Part shown: positions 5,504-21,393 of the stretch, piece after piece
How the letters are laid out: every line of letters starts with the position of its first letter
How positions within the stretch are numbered: the first letter of the stretch is position 1
NCBI GenBank assembly: GCA_021199355.1
Contig: JAJQIF010000004.1
Coordinates: 1 to 56,951, forward strand
DNA from: Oscillospiraceae bacterium
GTDB lineage: Bacteria > Bacillota > Clostridia > Oscillospirales > Ruminococcaceae
Direction of reading: 5' to 3'
Length of the DNA: 56,951 nucleotides
Made by a program: the position numbers and the translations under genes
Notes under the pieces: model-generated
Database searches by the model: none
What the model was told of the DNA's origin: nothing
What the model saw: the letters and a program-made list of their open reading frames with translations, nothing else

Positions 5504-6550
5504 TTATATTTCATATTCCCGCCTTAACTGCCCACAGGCGGCATCTATATCCGCACCCAAGGTGCGTCGGACCGTTGCATTCACGCCGAGACCCTGAAGC
5601 TTTTTGCAGAAGCCTTCGGCGGCGGTGCGAGAAGAGTGATAGTCGCGTTCTTTGATTTTGTTTATCGGTATTACATTTATATGCGACGGCATTCCGCTTA
5701 CCAGCTTTGCGAGCGCTTTTGCGTCCTCCATAGTGTCATTGGTACCGTCTATCAGGGAATATTCAAACGAGATTCTTCTTCCCGTAGTTGCGAAATAATC
5801 CCGGCACGCCTTCATTAGCTCGCTTATATTATATCTCTTATTCACCGGCATCAATGCGCTTCGCTTTTCGTCGGTGGTCGCGTGAAGAGAAATAGAAAGC
5901 GTGAGTCCGAGATTCAGCTCCGCAAGCTCATAAATCTTGTCGACAAGCCCGCAGGTTGAAAGCGAGACGTGCCTCAGGCTCATATTGGTACCCTTTTCGC
6001 TTGACAGAAGCTCAAGAAATCTCACGACATTATCGAAGTTATCAAGCGGTTCGCCGATGCCCATAAGAACTATGCTCGAGACTTTCCTGCCTGAAATCCT
6101 CTCCGCTTCGTAAAGCTGCAAAAGAATTTCGGAGGGCTTGAGGCTTCGTTTGAAGCCGGCTATAGTAGAAGCACAGAATCTGCATCCCATCTTGCAACCG
6201 ACCTGAGTTGAGACACACAAGGAATCGCCGTGCTCATAGCTCATAAGGACCGTTTCGATATGGTTGCCGTCGGACAGCTCAAACAGGAACTTCTCGGTTT
6301 CATCAAGGCTTGACTTGAGGTTTCGAACACAGGAGAGCTTTTCGATATAAAACTCATTCGAGAGCTTATTTCTCAATGCAAGCGAGAGATTCGTCATTTC
6401 CGAGAATTCTCTTACCCGCTTCTGATGAAGCCATTCGTAAATCTGAGATGCCCGGAAGCTCTTTTCGCCTAAGCCCAGCATCTTGTCCGTCAGCTCTTCA
6501 AGGCTCATTGACAGTATATCAAGTCTTGCGTTATCAGTCAAGATGTTCAC
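5504..6550 (-). CDS. rlmN: 23S rRNA (A2503-C2)/tRNA (A37-C2) methyltransferase RlmN
   Basis: Radical-SAM enzyme that methylates A2503 of 23S rRNA and A37 of some tRNAs. It has 348 residues. C119, C123 and C126 form the CxxxCxxC cluster motif of the subfamily. C339 in ACGQL near the C-terminus matches the catalytic cysteine that bonds to the substrate. GIGEPLDN and SLHA blocks match the family. The ATG overlaps the rsmB stop by four bases (ATGA), indicating coupling within the operon. Confidence 0.96.
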   Translation of the reverse strand: MNILTDNARLDILSMSLEELTDKMLGLGEKSFRASQIYEWLHQKRVREFSEMTNLSLALRNKLSNEFYIEKLSCVRNLKSSLDETEKFLFELSDGNHIETVLMSYEHGDSLCVSTQVGCKMGCRFCASTIAGFKRSLKPSEILLQLYEAERISGRKVSSIVLMGIGEPLDNFDNVVRFLELLSSEKGTNMSLRHVSLSTCGLVDKIYELAELNLGLTLSISLHATTDEKRSALMPVNKRYNISELMKACRDYFATTGRRISFEYSLIDGTNDTMEDAKALAKLVSGMPSHINVIPINKIKERDYHSSRTAAEGFCKKLQGLGVNATVRRTLGADIDAACGQLRREYEI

Positions 6551-7845
6551 CCAATTCTTAAGAATTTCGCCATGAAGAATCCGTCGCCGCCATATGTGCA
6601 GGTCGCAGGCGTTACGGTTGCCTTGTAATCATCAAAGTGGGACAGCTTTGAGCCCTCAAAGTCCGGATTTTCTTTTAAAAATCTTTCAGCTATGTTGTCA
6701 TTCTCGTTGCGGTTGAGAGTGCAGGTCGAATAGACAAGAGTTCCGCCCGGCTTTACATACCGAGCCGATGTCTTCAATATTTCGTACTGGACTATCGGAA
6801 ACTGTCCCAAATCATCCTCACATGAATAGTTATATTTAATCTCCGGCTTGCGCCCGATTACTCCGAGACCGGAGCACGGAACGTCACAAAGGACTCTGTC
6901 TGCCATCGGAATCTCGCTGTTGAAGATTTTCGCGTTGTTTGTGGATGCCGAAATAATGCTCAAATTGAGCCTCTTCGCACCTTCGGTGATGAGCTTTGCA
7001 CGGTTGGCGTGCAGGTCAAAAGCAAAGACATTTCCGACATCGTTCATAATTTCCGCAATCGTAAACGCCTTGCCTCCGGGAGCGGAGCATACGTCGAGGA
7101 CTGTTTCGCCCTCTTTTGCACCCAATTCGGAAGCACAAATCTGGCAAGAGGCATCCTGAACATGGAACATTCCCTTTTTGTATGCCGAAAGCCTTTCGGC
7201 GGAACCGCAATTCTTCAAATCGTAGCAGTCGGGAATCACTTCATTCGGAACAGCTTCGATATTATCTTTTGCGAGTTCGGCAAGAATATCTTTCGTATCA
7301 AATTTGCAGGTATTGAAGCGGACTGTTGTAGGAGGTCTCCCCAAGGAAGCTTTGAGAATAGAAAGCGCAATCTCCTCGCCGTAATCCCGAAGCCACATAT
7401 CTGCGAGCCACTCGGGGCAGGAATACTCAAGAGACAAGCTGTCAAACGGGAGCTTTTTGCCGTCACGGATGAAGCTTCGGAGGACCGCATTCACGAAGCC
7501 GGATGCCGACTGATTACCAAGTTTTGTGAGCTTGACGCTCTCGTCGACTGCGGCACTGTCGGGAACGGAATCCATATAGAGAAGCTGATAGATTCCCATT
7601 CGCAGGATTTCCCGGATTTCGGGGGAAAGCTTTTCTATCGGTCTTTTCAAATATTTTCCGATAACGGCATCAAGGGTGATTCTTCTTTCGATGACGCCGT
7701 AGTAGAGAGCGGAGATAAACCGCCTGTCGACATCGGAAAGACCTGAGTTTCTTGAAAGCGTATTGTCGAGCGCAATGCTCGAAAAGCTTGAATTTTTCTC
7801 GACTTTCAGGAGTAGTCCCAAACAAATCTCTCTCGGTGTCTGCAT
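6547..7845 (-). CDS. rsmB: 16S rRNA (cytosine 967-C5) methyltransferase RsmB
   Basis: SAM-dependent m5C methyltransferase of 16S rRNA, 432 residues. The N-terminal third is a NusB-like RNA-binding domain. The C-terminal catalytic domain has DVCSAPGGK for SAM binding, the release cysteine in CDVPCSGLG and the nucleophile cysteine in YSTCTL. The start ATG lies 29 bases after fmt with only a weak purine tract upstream. It ends in an ATGA overlap with rlmN. Order fmt-rsmB-rlmN is as in Bacillus. Confidence 0.95.
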   Translation of the reverse strand: MQTPREICLGLLLKVEKNSSFSSIALDNTLSRNSGLSDVDRRFISALYYGVIERRITLDAVIGKYLKRPIEKLSPEIREILRMGIYQLLYMDSVPDSAAVDESVKLTKLGNQSASGFVNAVLRSFIRDGKKLPFDSLSLEYSCPEWLADMWLRDYGEEIALSILKASLGRPPTTVRFNTCKFDTKDILAELAKDNIEAVPNEVIPDCYDLKNCGSAERLSAYKKGMFHVQDASCQICASELGAKEGETVLDVCSAPGGKAFTIAEIMNDVGNVFAFDLHANRAKLITEGAKRLNLSIISASTNNAKIFNSEIPMADRVLCDVPCSGLGVIGRKPEIKYNYSCEDDLGQFPIVQYEILKTSARYVKPGGTLVYSTCTLNRNENDNIAERFLKENPDFEGSKLSHFDDYKATVTPATCTYGGDGFFMAKFLRIG

Positions 7846-16925: not shown

Positions 16926-16954
16926 AAGACCGCAAGCGGTCAGCTCACGGTCTT
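16926..16954 (-). terminator. Terminator of surface-protein gene 1
   Basis: AAGACCG/CGGTCTT arms followed on the minus strand by TTTTCTG. The same arms recur in the terminators at 17780-17806, 18559-18592 and 19362-19389. Confidence 0.7.
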
Positions 16955-16975
16955 AGTCGGTGAATTCGTGTGGAA

Positions 16976-17662
16976 TTATCTTCTCTTAGAAGAAACTACA
17001 GCGAAGCCAGCGATTGCCATCGGGACGAGGGCAAGTGCAACACCGGTGTCAGGAGAAGAAGCGGTAGAAGTCTCGGTAGACTCAGAAGCTTCCTCAGTGG
17101 TCTCTTCAGTAGCGTTGACATCCTCAACAGCCTCTTCCTCAGTGGTCTCAGGAACGATTACAGAGATGTAAGAAACCTTGTAAGCATTCGTCTCAGAAGT
17201 GTTGATTACGAGGGTAGGAGTGCCGCCGTTAAGAGCGCCCATCTCTTCGTAACGAGCATAAACTGCGTTTGCATCGTAGGTAACGGTAACACCGTCATCA
17301 GACAAGCAGTCGATGATTCCCTTATCAGGCTCATCAGCAGAAGTGTGACCAGCAGTACCGAGCCAGCATCTCTCATCGCCAGTTGAATACCAGCTGTCGA
17401 TAAGGCAGAAGTTCTCATAAGCGCCATCGGTTTCGAAACCAATGTGAACTTCGGTATCTCTGGTGATAACGAGAACAGCACCCTCTACCTGAAGAGCTTC
17501 AAGGAAGGCATCGGGATCTTCGATTTCCTGTGTTGCCCAGCTATCGGAGTTGAAGAAGAGATGCTCTTCCGGACCCCAGATAACTTCGTCATCTGCAAAA
17601 GCAACAACGCTTACAGAGAGAACCATGACTATCGCCAAAGCGATTGACAATACTTTTTTCAT
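16976..17662 (-). CDS. Secreted surface protein with sorting-like tail, paralogue 1
   Basis: No known family recognised. The 228-residue protein has a signal peptide (1-23, ending AFA), then an ectodomain of about 150 residues of likely beta character, rich in Asp, Glu, Trp and Tyr. A low-complexity Glu/Thr/Ser spacer follows, then SPDTG (203-207), a hydrophobic stretch and a final KRR. The tail resembles a sortase-anchoring signal with Ser in place of the Leu of LPxTG. It shares signal peptide and tail with the proteins at 18608 and 19410, while the ectodomains differ. A xylanase gene nearby makes carbohydrate binding conceivable but unproven. Promoter and palindromic leader at 17675-17735; terminator 16926-16954. 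Confidence 0.85.
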   Translation of the reverse strand: MKKVLSIALAIVMVLSVSVVAFADDEVIWGPEEHLFFNSDSWATQEIEDPDAFLEALQVEGAVLVITRDTEVHIGFETDGAYENFCLIDSWYSTGDERCWLGTAGHTSADEPDKGIIDCLSDDGVTVTYDANAVYARYEEMGALNGGTPTLVINTSETNAYKVSYISVIVPETTEEEAVEDVNATEETTEEASESTETSTASSPDTGVALALVPMAIAGFAVVSSKRR

Positions 17663-17674
17663 TTGTGAATTCCT

Positions 17675-17690
17675 CCAAAATATATTTTGG
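17675..17690 (-). promoter_or_regulatory. 16-bp perfect palindrome at the ribosome binding site, copy 1
   Basis: CCAAAATATATTTTGG is its own reverse complement. Its last two G are the first two bases of the GGAGG Shine-Dalgarno. In RNA it could form a 6-bp stem with a UAUA loop, partly hiding the site; in DNA it could be an operator. Identical copies lie at 19240-19255 and 20131-20146. Confidence 0.85.
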
Positions 17691-17706
17691 TGTTAAAACC
17701 ATATCT

Positions 17707-17735
17707 ATGATAACACACCAACTCGGATTTGTCAA
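17707..17735 (-). promoter_or_regulatory. Promoter of surface-protein gene 1
   Basis: Minus-strand TTGACA (17730-17735), 17-base spacer, TATCAT (17707-17712), about 17 bases ahead of the palindrome. Confidence 0.85.
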
Positions 17736-17779
17736 TAAATATCCGAGCTTTTGGAAAAAGTTTTTTGTCGGAAAAGAAA

Positions 17780-17806
17780 AAGACCGCAGGGTCAGTTTGC
17801 GGTCTT
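17780..17806 (-). terminator. Terminator of the PIN/antitoxin pair, overlapping the stop codon
   Basis: A perfect 9-bp stem AAGACCGCA/TGCGGTCTT and TTTTCTTTT on the minus strand. The stop codon of the small gene (17792-17794) is in the loop, so translation and termination may interact. The arms match those of the neighbouring surface-protein terminators. Confidence 0.85.
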
Positions 17807-18016
17807 GGTTCTTTGGTATTCCTTAATCAGAGCATAAAGCTCATCGACACTCATGTCAGGCTGTTTATACTTGTCTTTCGTATAATCGCCAGAACAGGAG
17901 CAATTCTGTTTCATGAAAAGAGCCGCACCCTCAGCGCCTAATGCTTTCTCTAGCGCTTCATAACCTGCTATTCTCAGCTCTGCGGGGTGACTGTAATTTA
18001 CTCGTGCCTGTGCCAT
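17792..18016 (-). CDS. Probable antitoxin partner of the PIN-domain protein
   Basis: A 74-residue protein beginning MAQARVNYSHPAELRIAG. The pattern ALEKALGAEGAALFMKQ followed by GDYTKDKY resembles a widespread small family encoded beside PIN-domain genes, so I infer an antitoxin. The typical phenylalanine/glycine stretch before GDYT is replaced by NCSCS. The start ATG overlaps the PIN-gene stop by one base (TAATG) and has GGAGGAG upstream. The order is toxin first, antitoxin second, opposite to many vapBC operons. It could also be a hypothetical gene unrelated to neutralisation. Confidence 0.75.
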   Translation of the reverse strand: MAQARVNYSHPAELRIAGYEALEKALGAEGAALFMKQNCSCSGDYTKDKYKQPDMSVDELYALIKEYQRTKTAN

Positions 18017-18468
18017 TAAAAATCTCCTCCGCTCCAATATTGTTCGATATAATCTCGTGGATTCATAACTTCTACTTCTAAATCTAATCTTGAAGCCATT
18101 TTTATAAGCTTGTAATCCGTTGTCAACATAACATCTGCACCGGCTTCTTCTGCACATGCTATATGAGCACTGTCAGATGCACGAATATTTGAATGTTCCT
18201 GAATCTGATTAGCCCTCAACCTATTACTATCGCTAAGTTCAACCGTCTCATCAACGCCGTTGTAGTCATTAAAAACCTGTGACCTTTTATCAAAATCACT
18301 TATATTATTAAGCTCAAATACAAGCACATCACTTCCTACAAGAGATATACTCTCCTGCGCATGCAACCTAAATATAGCTAAAATCGCTTTAACCTCAGCT
18401 CTGACTTGCTCTTGGCTCAAATCGTCAAACTGTCTGCAATAGCAACAACAATCCAGATAGACTTTCAC
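18016..18468 (-). CDS. PIN-domain protein, probable VapC-like toxin RNase
   Basis: A 150-residue PIN-domain protein. Acidic residues fit a metal-dependent RNase site: D6 in the first strand, D99 in the SDSAHIA segment and D118 in TTDYK. VapC-type toxins cleave tRNA or rRNA. The start is GTG at 18468 with a weak AGGCGG site upstream. The coding sequence is more A/T-rich than its neighbours, suggesting transfer. It lies between surface-protein genes 1 and 2, with its own promoter and an inverted repeat at 18479-18496 that could be an autoregulatory operator. Confidence 0.85.
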   Translation of the reverse strand: MKVYLDCCCYCRQFDDLSQEQVRAEVKAILAIFRLHAQESISLVGSDVLVFELNNISDFDKRSQVFNDYNGVDETVELSDSNRLRANQIQEHSNIRASDSAHIACAEEAGADVMLTTDYKLIKMASRLDLEVEVMNPRDYIEQYWSGGDF

Positions 18469-18478
18469 AACAACACCG

Positions 18479-18496
18479 CCTATAAATTTATATAGG
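18479..18496 (-). promoter_or_regulatory. Inverted repeat upstream of the PIN gene, possible operator
   Basis: CCTATA and TATAGG arms separated by 6 bases lie between the -10 box and the GTG start. Toxin-antitoxin complexes often repress their own operon through such sites. Function here is inferred. Confidence 0.4.
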
Positions 18497-18515
18497 TGAA
18501 ACTTACTCTGATAGT

Positions 18516-18544
18516 ATTATATCACAAAATTCACGGAATGGCAA
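18516..18544 (-). promoter_or_regulatory. Promoter of the PIN/antitoxin pair
   Basis: Minus-strand TTGCCA (18539-18544), 17-base spacer, TATAAT (18516-18521). Confidence 0.8.
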
Positions 18545-18558
18545 TAGCCAATTTAAAG

Positions 18559-18592
18559 AAAAAGACCGCAGGCATGCACCCACGGTCTTTTT
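18559..18592 (-). terminator. Terminator of surface-protein gene 2
   Basis: A 10-bp stem AAAAAGACCG/CGGTCTTTTT, with a T-rich tail on the minus strand. It immediately precedes the PIN promoter, isolating the two units. Confidence 0.8.
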
Positions 18593-18607
18593 GAAATCAA
18601 TCAGTGA

Positions 18608-19228
18608 TTATCTCTTCTTGGAACCTACAACAGCGATACCTGCGATTGCCATCGGAACGAGGGCAAGTGCAACACCGGTGGAAGGAGAAGTGGTAGTGGT
18701 GGTCTCTTCGGTAGCTTCTTCGGTGGTCTCCTCGGTAGCTTCCTCAGTAGCCTCAGCCTCTTCGGTCTCATCAGTGGTCTCTTCGGTCTCAGCAACAGCT
18801 GCATCAGCAGAAGTGGAAACTACAGCAACACCGGTAAGAGTTGCATAGTCATCACCCCACCAGTTAAGAACGACACCATCAGCAGGATCAGCACCGATTG
18901 CAGCAAAAGCAGCAGCAACATCGGTAAGAGCATAGCAAACATAACCATCAGTGTTGACAGCAAGCTCATAGTCAGTGCCATAGCCGATTGCAGTGGTCCA
19001 GTTGGAATCGCAAAGAGCGGCAGGTCCCCAACCAGCATAGCTTTCGTCATCGAGAGTGAAGTAGATGTAGAGATAGAGGCTCTCATCGGTGAAATCAACA
19101 CCATCGGTGCAGGTAAGGGTTGCGGAAGCTGAAATGGACTCAGAAGCGACTGTAGTGTCAGCAAATGCAACGACGCTCAAAGAGAGAACCATTACAAGTG
19201 CAACAGCGATTGATAAGAATTTCTTCAT
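18608..19228 (-). CDS. Secreted surface protein with sorting-like tail, paralogue 2
   Basis: No known family. The start is ATG at 19228, with GGAGG upstream; the open frame extends further but covers the promoter. Of 206 residues, 1-23 are a signal peptide nearly identical to those of paralogues 1 and 3. An ectodomain of about 120 residues rich in Asp, Ala, Trp and Tyr follows, then a long Thr/Glu low-complexity spacer. SPSTG (181-185), a hydrophobic segment and a KKR end form a sortase-like signal. It is the shortest of the three and its ectodomain is clearly divergent. It is monocistronic, with the same promoter-palindrome leader as its paralogues. Confidence 0.85.
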   Translation of the reverse strand: MKKFLSIAVALVMVLSLSVVAFADTTVASESISASATLTCTDGVDFTDESLYLYIYFTLDDESYAGWGPAALCDSNWTTAIGYGTDYELAVNTDGYVCYALTDVAAAFAAIGADPADGVVLNWWGDDYATLTGVAVVSTSADAAVAETEETTDETEEAEATEEATEETTEEATEETTTTTSPSTGVALALVPMAIAGIAVVGSKKR

Positions 19229-19239
19229 TTCGAATTCCT

Positions 19240-19255
19240 CCAAAATATATTTTGG
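19240..19255 (-). promoter_or_regulatory. 16-bp perfect palindrome at the ribosome binding site, copy 2
   Basis: Identical to copies 1 and 3, again sharing two G with GGAGG and followed by GAATTC before the start codon. Confidence 0.85.
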
Positions 19256-19270
19256 TTTAAAACCTCTATT

Positions 19271-19299
19271 ATCATACCACCATATCTCGTGTTTGTCAA
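19271..19299 (-). promoter_or_regulatory. Promoter of surface-protein gene 2
   Basis: Minus-strand TTGACA (19294-19299), 17-base spacer, TATGAT (19271-19276). Confidence 0.85.
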
Positions 19300-19361
19300 C
19301 CGAAAAATCGAAATTTACCTCAAATTTACACAAACCCCTCCACCACCGCCGGCTAAAAGAA

Positions 19362-19389
19362 AAGACCGCAAGCCGAAGCTCACGGTCTT
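19362..19389 (-). terminator. Terminator of surface-protein gene 3
   Basis: AAGACCG/CGGTCTT arms with an inner AGC/GCT pairing, and TTTTCTTTT downstream on the minus strand. Confidence 0.75.
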
Positions 19390-19409
19390 AATCTATGACA
19401 GAAAAGTGA

Positions 19410-20120
19410 TTATCTTCTCTTGGAAGAAACTACAGCGATGCCAGCGATTGCCATCGGAACGAGAGCAAGTGCAACACCGGTGTCAGGAGAAGAAGCAGTG
19501 GTGGTCTCGGTGGACTCAGAAGCCTCTTCAGTAGTTTCCTCAGTAGCCTCAGCCTCTTCGGTGGTCTCTTCGGTCTCTTCCTCAGCAGAAGCAGTGGTGA
19601 TTACATAAACGCCATAGGTCTTAGCGCCGGAGCAAGCACCGAATATCCACTGCCAAGTGTTAACAGTGAGGTCGATGTCGTTAGCGGTAAGAGCGTCAAC
19701 AAATTCAGCAGCATCAACGATGATATAAGCATAGTCGCCGTCAATAACAACATCTTCAGCGCCAAGATTGCCTTCGCCTCCAGCGTAGTTGAAGTGAGCA
19801 AGAACCATTACCCAAGTATCGGTGGTCTGAACACCATACTGGAAGCCATAGCCATCCTCAGTGGAGCCTGCGATAGCGTCAGCCTTGATAACGATCTTAG
19901 CGCCATCAACGGTGATAGCTTCTGCAAATTCAGCACCAGCATCAGTAGAGCTACCGAGATCGGAATCTTCTTTCCACCAGCCGTTGTCCATCGGGAAGAG
20001 AGGCTCGTAAGTTGTAAGAACTTCGGTTGCAATGCTATCAACATAGTCATCTGCAAAAGCGCAAACGCTTACAGAAAGCATCATGATAATCGCCAAAGCG
20101 ATTGATACAAATTTTTTCAT
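19410..20120 (-). CDS. Secreted surface protein with sorting-like tail, paralogue 3
   Basis: No known family. It has 236 residues: signal peptide 1-23, an ectodomain of about 155 residues with many aromatic residues and alternating hydrophobic strands (jelly-roll-like by eye), a Glu/Thr spacer, then SPDTG (211-215), a hydrophobic segment and KRR. The tail is almost identical to that of paralogue 1. The neighbouring upstream gene is a GH10 xylanase, and no terminator is evident between them, so some readthrough into this gene is likely besides its own promoter. A surface-displayed glycan-binding module is a reasonable guess. No sortase gene is in the window. Confidence 0.85.
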   Translation of the reverse strand: MKKFVSIALAIIMMLSVSVCAFADDYVDSIATEVLTTYEPLFPMDNGWWKEDSDLGSSTDAGAEFAEAITVDGAKIVIKADAIAGSTEDGYGFQYGVQTTDTWVMVLAHFNYAGGEGNLGAEDVVIDGDYAYIIVDAAEFVDALTANDIDLTVNTWQWIFGACSGAKTYGVYVITTASAEEETEETTEEAEATEETTEEASESTETTTASSPDTGVALALVPMAIAGIAVVSSKRR

Positions 20121-20130
20121 TTGAATTCCT

Positions 20131-20146
20131 CCAAAATATATTTTGG
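20131..20146 (-). promoter_or_regulatory. 16-bp perfect palindrome at the ribosome binding site, copy 3
   Basis: Third identical copy of CCAAAATATATTTTGG, directly abutting the Shine-Dalgarno of paralogue 3. Confidence 0.85.
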
Positions 20147-20161
20147 TATAAAACCATATCT

Positions 20162-20190
20162 ATCATAGCACCAAATCGCTGATTTGTCAA
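20162..20190 (-). promoter_or_regulatory. Promoter of surface-protein gene 3
   Basis: Minus-strand TTGACA (20185-20190), 17-base spacer, TATGAT (20162-20167). Confidence 0.85.
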
Positions 20191-20238: not shown

Positions 20239-21393
20239 TCATGACTTCGAAGCCGCAAGGTCGATGAGGCTCCAGTAGGCGGATTTGAGCTTATAGTCGC
20301 GGTCGATGAGCAAGGGATAGTTTACTCTGCCGGAGACGGGATAGCCGTTGAGCCATGACATGCCGTCGTTATAGCCCCACATTACGACCGAATCGAGATA
20401 GCCCGCCTCGGAGAACTCGATGAACATCTCGAAGATGTCCGAATAGAGGCTGTCGAACTTCTCGACAAACTCGTCGGTGAGCTCAATGTCGGTGGACGAA
20501 TCGCTCCACGAATAGCAACTGAGGTCGAGCTCTGTGATTTCGATGACGAAGTCGGGGTCGATTTCTTTTAATCTCATGAGGATTTCAACGTTGTTTTTGC
20601 AGGTTTCGGCGTCAAAGTCGATGTCGATGTGCATCTGGAGTCCTATGCCGTCAATCGGAATCCCCTCTTCGAGCATGCTCTTGACCATCATGTACATGGT
20701 GATGGTCTTATCCTCCGAAGATTCAAGGCTGTAGTCGTTGATGATGAGCCGGGCGTCAGGGTCGGCTTCGTGAGCTGTTTCAAAGGCGATTTCGATGTAG
20801 TCGTATTTGTCGCCGTCGCCGTCATAGTCGCCGATGATCTGGTACCACATGGAATCGCGGAGCCCGCCGTTGTCGCCGAGAACTTCGTTGACGACGTCCC
20901 AGACATCGACTTCGCCCTTGTAATGGCTGACGATGGTGGTGATGTGCTCTTTCATCCGCTCGATAAGGACGTCCGCCGAGACGGTGTTGCCATCGTCATC
21001 ATAGGAGAACCAGTCGGGGCACTGTGAGTGCCAGACGAGGACGTGTCCACGGACGGTTTTGTCGTATTCGTTTGCGAATTCGACGAGCTTGTCCAGAGCT
21101 TCGAAGTTATAGACATCCTCGGAAGGATGAATATTCTCGGGCTTCGACTCGTTCTCGAGGGTGAAAACGTTGTACTGCTTGATGAGGATTTCCATCTCCT
21201 CGGAGCCCTCTACCAAGTCGCTCGTGTTCATGGCGGTTCCTACCTTGAACCACTCGGAAAAGGCTTCATAGAGCGAAGGGGCTTCCTCGTCATAGGCGTA
21301 CAGGTCGGGATGCGAAGTGCTTCCGCAGGAGGTCAAAGCCGTTGCCGATATGGCAAACGCTATGACTGCGGAAAGGATTCTTTTCAGCTTCAT
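20239..21393 (-). CDS. Glycoside hydrolase family 10 endo-1,4-beta-xylanase, lipoprotein
   Basis: Probable retaining endo-xylanase that cleaves xylan backbones, 384 residues. The N-terminus is a lipoprotein signal (LTSC, lipidated C23), so the enzyme should be tethered to the outer face of the membrane. GH10 signatures: RGHVLVWHSQ (116-124), acid/base E170 in DVVNE, QMH (253-255), nucleophile E288 in ITELD and late WGYNDGMSW. There is no separate binding module or dockerin. It is the last gene of the pcrA...DUF3810 run, 26 bases after DUF3810, with GGGAGGAA before the ATG. It sits next to the surface-protein island, suggesting plant-fibre use in a gut or rumen habitat. Confidence 0.93.
   Translation of the reverse strand: MKLKRILSAVIAFAISATALTSCGSTSHPDLYAYDEEAPSLYEAFSEWFKVGTAMNTSDLVEGSEEMEILIKQYNVFTLENESKPENIHPSEDVYNFEALDKLVEFANEYDKTVRGHVLVWHSQCPDWFSYDDDGNTVSADVLIERMKEHITTIVSHYKGEVDVWDVVNEVLGDNGGLRDSMWYQIIGDYDGDGDKYDYIEIAFETAHEADPDARLIINDYSLESSEDKTITMYMMVKSMLEEGIPIDGIGLQMHIDIDFDAETCKNNVEILMRLKEIDPDFVIEITELDLSCYSWSDSSTDIELTDEFVEKFDSLYSDIFEMFIEFSEAGYLDSVVMWGYNDGMSWLNGYPVSGRVNYPLLIDRDYKLKSAYWSLIDLAASKS

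Follow-up and report, generated by a model that had tools for sequence, protein, structure and literature searches.

Ectodomains exchanged between constant ends in a small array of sortase-type surface-protein genes from gut Oscillospiraceae

We analysed a 56,951-nucleotide stretch of an Oscillospiraceae genome (assembly GCA_021199355.1, contig JAJQIF010000004.1; hereafter the window), in which positions 16926-20190 on the minus strand hold three genes, P0003, P0002 and P0001, for short secreted proteins of 236, 206 and 228 amino acids (aa). Judged by comparison with related genomes, the ectodomains of these proteins have been exchanged between constant ends, within genes and across species. 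We regard the middles as exchanged because their synonymous divergence (dS) is in some comparisons far above and in others far below that of the flanking genes, because ectodomain trees reject the grouping of the genomes in approximately unbiased (AU) tests, and because a module A lies within P0003-like ends in a relative. Together with steps of divergence inside single genes, this strongly supports the suggestion of a first-pass annotation that the genes form a modular set diversified by domain exchange. The best overall reading of the locus is an exchangeable surface-lectin array, to which we assign a probability of roughly 0.6.

Layout of the array and its shared ends

The span runs from the terminator-like hairpin of P0001 up to the -35 box of P0003. 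We place the start of P0002 at the ATG at 19228; the list of open reading frames (ORFs) opens earlier, at a TTG. The genes and their parts are as follows (pLDDT, predicted local distance difference test).

19410..20120, minus strand: P0003, 236 aa; signal peptide, module D ectodomain, Glu/Thr spacer, SPDTG anchor
19587..20051, minus strand: P0003 module D ectodomain, residues 24-178, remote relative of module A
19413..19490, minus strand: P0003 SPDTG anchor
18608..19228, minus strand: P0002, 206 aa; signal peptide, module B ectodomain, Glu/Thr spacer, SPSTG anchor
18800..19156, minus strand: P0002 module B ectodomain, residues 25-143, beta-rich model, pLDDT 93
18611..18688, minus strand: P0002 SPSTG anchor
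16976..17662, minus strand: P0001, 228 aa; signal peptide, module A ectodomain, Glu/Thr spacer, SPDTG anchor
17141..17593, minus strand: P0001 module A ectodomain, residues 24-174, beta-rich model, pLDDT 77.5
16979..17056, minus strand: P0001 SPDTG anchor

The 26-aa anchor is 85-96% identical among the three paralogues, the signal peptide 70-83% and the spacer 57-69%, confirming that the proteins share a signal peptide, a Glu/Thr spacer and an SP[DS]TG tail; the ectodomains are just 23-27% identical. As read from the sequences, all three carry the elements of sortase-anchored wall proteins, namely a signal peptide, an xPxTG-like motif, a hydrophobic stretch and a positive tail. The first-pass annotation needs correction on a few points: the KRR ending does not extend to P0002, which ends in SKKR, and the genes lie in the same cluster but are not all immediate neighbours, since a PIN-like gene and a gene for a 74-aa protein separate P0002 from P0001. 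The ectodomains, described there as clearly different from each other, are distinct at the level of identity, but those of P0001 and P0003 are remote relatives (hhalign 93%); no relationship of the P0002 ectodomain to either of the others could be detected.

Divergence within the genes

The array lies between a secreted glycoside hydrolase family 10 (GH10) xylanase upstream and a class II tRNA synthetase of the D/K/N group downstream, which we take to be AsnS, and synteny at this locus extends to 10 other genomes from the same genus. All compared genomes are draft assemblies, the ones with named records being metagenome-assembled genomes (MAGs), and the reference throughout is the genome of the window (G000). 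Intervals for dS and nonsynonymous divergence (dN) come from a codon bootstrap, with flanking genes pooled and constant ends pooled; the G013 row excludes GH10 and PIN and holds only part of DUF3810, the G015 row excludes PIN, and G008, G009, G010 and G011 enter the identity comparison but not the bootstrap.

In close relatives, pooled flank dS is 0.21 (0.18-0.25) for G013, 0.25 (0.22-0.29) for G012 and 0.29 (0.26-0.33) for G007, and pooled constant-end dS is 0.05, 0.10 and 0.10, respectively. Ectodomain dS against the window is 0.80 and 0.91 in G013, 0.87, 0.42 and 1.16 in G012, and 1.17 and 1.25 in G007, with protein identities of 46-71%. The confidence interval (CI) of the lowest value, that of module B in G012 (0.42, CI 0.27-0.62), touches the flank interval, the corresponding dN being 0.24 versus 0.01. 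Secretion alone does not explain this divergence, since the secreted GH10 enzyme is 98% identical in G012 and 97% in G007. We used this enzyme as the control in place of a solitary anchored gene elsewhere in the genome, which is itself variable. That gene (L010:1057-1704; G000:C7:482916-483560) encodes a short anchored protein of the same design with a different ectodomain, and its product is 97% identical in G012, 78% in G013 and 68% in G007; in G006 the figure is 90%, for residues 1-185.

The anomaly also runs in the opposite direction. Flank dS reaches 1.08, 1.06 and 1.13 in the distant relatives G006, G015 and G014, and each nonetheless holds one ectodomain near that of the window: module D in G006 (92% identity, dS 0.25, CI 0.15-0.38), module A in G015 (89%, dS 0.47) and module B in G014 (90%, dS 0.58). 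The remaining four ectodomains compared in these genomes are 45-65% identical. Synonymous divergence of their constant ends (0.28-0.48) is below that of the flanks; codon constraint or homogenisation among the copies may be the reason. Because dN/dS is below 1 in all 14 ectodomain comparisons, we attribute the variety to the import of diverged versions, and these 14 comparisons do not demonstrate positive selection on point changes.

Within P0001 and P0002, 30-bp blocks compared with the close relatives locate the steps: five leader and signal blocks are 83-100% identical, middle blocks average 57-74%, and spacer, anchor and trailer return to 94-99%. A few middle blocks are highly identical, indicating that a breakpoint can fall within the ectodomain. 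In G013 the first slot, that of P0003, has P0003-like ends enclosing a module A.

The AsnS tree unites G000, G013, G012 and G007 (support 98/99), and ectodomain trees reject this grouping for module D (AU test, p 8e-102), module B (4e-35) and module A (2.5e-68). Module B was tested with four rows, D and A with three of the four clade rows, because D is absent in G013 and the G007 module A gene was omitted for an unread stretch in its tail; a more distant G001 gene is also left out of the module A tree. The clade was chosen by flank identity after the ectodomain divergence had already been seen. In the tree of the ends of the B genes, a weakly supported branch (59/90) has G000, G013, G012 and G007 together on the same side. 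We also considered whether variability is restricted to loops and found no support for this, mean entropy being about equal in strands and loops.

The array across the genus

Matches to P0003 occur in 30 of the 31 genomes of the genus, often to the tail alone. The window and its ten syntenic relatives give 11 arrays with 34 surface genes, two to four in each; they draw on modules A, B, C and D, whose order varies between genomes. The GH10 gene is upstream in 10 of the 11, and AsnS is downstream in 10, the eleventh meeting a contig end. Further arrays with other ectodomains and array-specific tails of their own are present in other species. At BLAST E 1e-3, 46 of 59 short ectodomains fall into a single linked group, a generous grouping, since the borders of the ectodomains were set by rule and no composition correction was applied.

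The variation in gene number and order, as well as the many ectodomain types in the genus, might be explained without any exchange if the modules were old paralogues, differently retained or lost in each species. We consider this very unlikely and largely refuted, since the divergence step sits inside single genes and differential loss cannot yield an anomalously low dS with a distant species; whole-gene paralogy without exchange was rejected on the within-gene steps and the dS anomalies. Even less credible is an artefact in which short-read MAG assembly mixed genes with common end sequences. The assemblies are drafts, and the ends repeat with near-identical sequence over roughly 100 bp, but the anchor letter is tied to the module in all 33 readable tails from 11 genomes (SPDTG with A and D, SPSTG with B, SPATG with C), the arrays are flanked by the same neighbours throughout, and mixing within one genome cannot create ectodomains in common with distant species.

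Profile searches for modules A and B covered the family at most. Within the genus, 13 of the 31 genomes gave a module A; among 297 genomes sampled from the family, 2 did so, and both belong to this genus. Module B was found in 11 of the 31, and a pattern-limited scan of GTDB contigs returned 11 loci, all in Oscillospiraceae or Ruminococcus MAG records.

Fold, module reuse and probable ligands

The first-pass annotation recognised no family for the ectodomains, and sequence searches agree: no Pfam family scores above its cut-off and no other sequence family matches. It also thought adhesion to glycan or fibre a reasonable hypothesis, which a fold match to carbohydrate-binding modules (CBMs) would support. 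When the models of the two modules A and B were used as queries, glycan-binding modules do rank at the top, with CBM65 among the leading Foldseek and VIA rows, but the scores are middling (at best 5e-3 for the Foldseek E and 7.0 for Z). Profiles built from the two modules retrieved no CBM from PDB sequences up to E 10. Both modules have invariant aromatic residues, W99/W100 in module B and W19/W68 in module A, numbered within the modelled ectodomains. Among the closest known systems is the CBM65 of Eubacterium cellulosolvens Cel5A, with its relatives in Ruminococcus albus 8; for CBM65 the binding residues W55, Q106 and Q110 are named in the portion of PMC4954948 consulted.

The same modules recur in longer proteins. 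In the window's genome, a 2443-aa protein (L100:1801-9129) contains, besides module A, both a C-type lectin domain and a transglutaminase-like one, a 591-aa NPTTG protein has the order A-B-A, and a 529-aa NPTTG protein with the order B-B-A adjoins a secreted GH13 alpha-amylase (L101:3752-5338 and 5612-7156; PF00128 E 4.8e-80). The pairing of B-B-A protein and amylase echoes that of array and GH10 xylanase. In relatives, module B terminates three Ser/Thr kinases, L117:4379-7456, L104:4845-7406 and L108:2148-4364 (Pkinase E 9.8e-33, 2.7e-34 and 1.6e-34). The possibility that a module serves as the CBM of an enzyme was rejected by a Pfam scan in which none of 25 module-bearing ORFs (22 in 20 stretches from relatives and three long ones of the window's genome) carried a glycoside hydrolase.

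Since CBM folds rank first, the xylanase is a near-constant neighbour and the modules recur in surface and kinase proteins, we consider glycan binding the most likely function. The adhesion hypothesis has indirect support from the folds, at middling scores, and from the GH10 neighbour.

The main rival driver of exchange, compatible with a binding role, is escape from phages or host antibodies. Here variability itself would be the function: the proteins would be exposed antigens or targets of phages and bacteriocins, and exchange would evade phages or host immunoglobulin A (IgA), a role comparable to that of the S-layer cassettes of Clostridioides difficile. It is the exposed part that varies while the ends stay constant, the near-consensus promoter of each gene suggests abundance, the solitary short anchored gene elsewhere is variable as well (97% in G012, 68% in G007), and SlpA cassette types are stated to determine phage infection in the part of PMC10100898 consulted. 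However, dN/dS below 1, a glycan-binding-like fold and the retained GH10 neighbour indicate a ligand role. Both roles may coexist, and we judge escape possible as the principal driver, at clearly lower odds than the lectin array.

PASTA domains belong to wall-sensing kinases, and the array modules might in a similar manner recognise polymers of the wall of their own cell and have a part in organising or sensing the envelope. The three module B kinases in relatives are in keeping with this idea. Exchange between species is unexpected for a self ligand, however, and none of the four sites at which module B was detected in the genome of the window (E 0.01) is such a kinase, so that we regard a self-wall ligand as unlikely.

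Anchor tails and sortases

A similarity search with P0003 detected at least 13 proteins with a similar tail in the window's genome, a lower bound because the search relied on similarity to that protein; the tail is thus not confined to the cluster. Two of these tails read SPDTG and one SPSTG (the array), one NADTG (a solitary 215-aa protein), eight NPTTG and one NPATG. The array proteins resemble the NPXTG-anchored family NF033846 in tail architecture, and eight other proteins of the genome end in NPTTG, but the array tails are SPDTG or SPSTG, and membership was rejected at scores of 11.6, 14.3 and 7.5 bits versus a cut-off of 23.5.

Six genes of the genome match the sortase family PF04203 above cut-off, where an absence would have counted against anchoring. 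Four of the six were scanned for class: two adjacent sortases are class B-like (TIGR03064 best, at 116.4 and 115.6 bits, below the cut-off of 153.75), one is class C and one has no class above cut-off. Because SrtB of Clostridioides difficile, a class B sortase, cleaves SPKTG (PMC4371152, consulted in part), a class B enzyme is likeliest for SPxTG, and by this analogy the array proteins are probably wall-attached through it. In a separate observation, two near-identical short sortase-like genes (L003 and L004) lie at the ends of contigs C2 and C7, cut at the identical residue, which suggests that a repeat broke the assembly.

Proposed mechanism and known parallels

Each unit of the proposed lectin array is self-contained, with its own promoter, leader, signal peptide, single folded module, acidic Glu/Thr spacer, SPxTG anchor and terminator. 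The protein would be secreted and then attached to the wall by a sortase, probably of class B to judge from motif and gene class. The near-identical ends could serve as homology arms, so that homologous recombination would put a diverged counterpart from a different species of the genus in place of the middle; array genes could also be gained or lost. The modules most likely bind glycans, whether of plant hemicellulose, mucus or microbial walls, and their exchange would then alter what the cell adheres to; we favour this last step because of the fold and the GH10 neighbour, and because long surface proteins and kinases carry these modules too. More tentatively, and at well under even odds, the genus might share a pool of CBM-fold modules recombining between constant ends, with the PIN-like/74-aa pairs helping retention and the kinases sensing with the same modules.

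Surface variation in which displayed domains are swapped between constant ends is already known. For the S-layer cassettes of C. difficile recombinational switching has been reported, and they are the nearest precedent known to us for a combination of constant and variable parts. SlpA likewise joins a conserved part to an exposed variable one (PMC10100898, in the part consulted), but it is one S-layer gene, whereas here several small sortase-type genes carry CBM-like modules across a genus. The starch-binding Sas20 domain is also a non-catalytic beta-sandwich glycan binder, and a relative of Sas20 in Ruminococcus bromii is predicted to be wall-anchored through a sortase motif (PMC9112005); it belongs to a different module family, however, and the passages of that paper on which we draw describe neither an array nor module exchange. 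The NR2 polymer adhesin domains of CshA/B share a shuffled, highly mutable ligand-binding fold in surface adhesins; as far as the consulted part of PMC10952558 goes, these are widespread adhesin tip domains, unlike the present single-module proteins, which our searches found in one genus only. What is new in the present case is the module families, the occurrence in gut Oscillospiraceae of an array of small CBM-like sortase-type proteins, the pool that extends across species and the use of the same modules by kinases. In open-access PMC, the scope of our literature search (subscription journals lay outside it), no paper on this locus was among the results listed, and we found none on NPXTG with a sortase in Ruminococcus.

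The locus offers, in gut bacteria known mostly from MAGs, a surface system whose exposed domains have a history unlike that of the flanking genes and unlike that of the ends of the same genes. With it, two questions become testable: whether gut Firmicutes evolve their specificity for fibre or mucus through module exchange, and whether commensals use such cassettes against phages or IgA. A further gain is a set of module families that match nothing in Pfam above cut-off and that have, from the models, a likely fold. If the more tentative reading above is correct, adhesion and sensing could draw on one exchangeable set of ligand specificities.

Promoters, leaders and neighbouring genes

The three genes have in common a sigma-70-like promoter, TTGACA-N17-TAT[GC]AT, that matches the consensus at 11 of 12 positions, and a leader in which an exact 16-bp palindrome is joined to the Shine-Dalgarno (SD) sequence. 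These features and the neighbouring genes are located as follows.

20239..21393, minus strand: GH10 xylanase with signal sequence, upstream of the array
20162..20190, minus strand: sigma-70-type promoter-like site, P0003
20131..20146, minus strand: 16-bp leader palindrome CCAAAATATATTTTGG joined to the SD of P0003
19362..19389, minus strand: terminator-like hairpin 3' of P0003
19271..19299, minus strand: sigma-70-type promoter-like site, P0002
19240..19255, minus strand: leader palindrome CCAAAATATATTTTGG, P0002
18559..18592, minus strand: terminator-like hairpin 3' of P0002
18016..18468, minus strand: PIN-like protein, 150 aa (PF01850 23.2 bits, cut-off 23.6)
17792..18016, minus strand: 74-aa partner of the PIN-like gene, stop/start overlap TAATG
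17707..17735, minus strand: sigma-70-type promoter-like site, P0001
17675..17690, minus strand: leader palindrome CCAAAATATATTTTGG, P0001
16926..16954, minus strand: terminator-like hairpin 3' of P0001

The palindrome with its SD has three exact sites in the genome, every one at P0001, P0002 or P0003, and allowing up to three mismatches adds only the opposite strand of these sites; the palindrome is not present at the solitary anchored gene. We considered it as a candidate RNA hairpin: among 33 array leaders examined, 28 carry it exactly, four pair via G-U and one is broken, so that pairing is retained in 32. The predicted RNA fold involves the palindrome in only one of the three window leaders.

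The signal sequence of the GH10 xylanase reads as lipoprotein-like. The PIN-like gene, just under its Pfam cut-off, and its overlapping partner are a candidate type II toxin-antitoxin pair of the PIN/VapC kind. The 74-aa protein matched nothing above cut-off in Pfam and nothing in NCBIfam or PADLOC; the region of the pair (17792-18468) gave a weak PADLOC match to PDC-M11A (E 1.6e-6). Including the window, PIN-like genes occur in 8 of the 11 arrays, in one to three copies, and relatives of the 74-aa gene in 9. The PIN-like genes diverge more than the flanks, with a dS of 1.0 in G012 and 2.3 in G007, and the pair therefore probably travels along with the array. Within arrays of relatives (G014) it is repeated as many as three times. 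The G013 locus (L064) has no GH10 gene and DUF3810 lies in two pieces beside the array, which suggests a local deletion or rearrangement.

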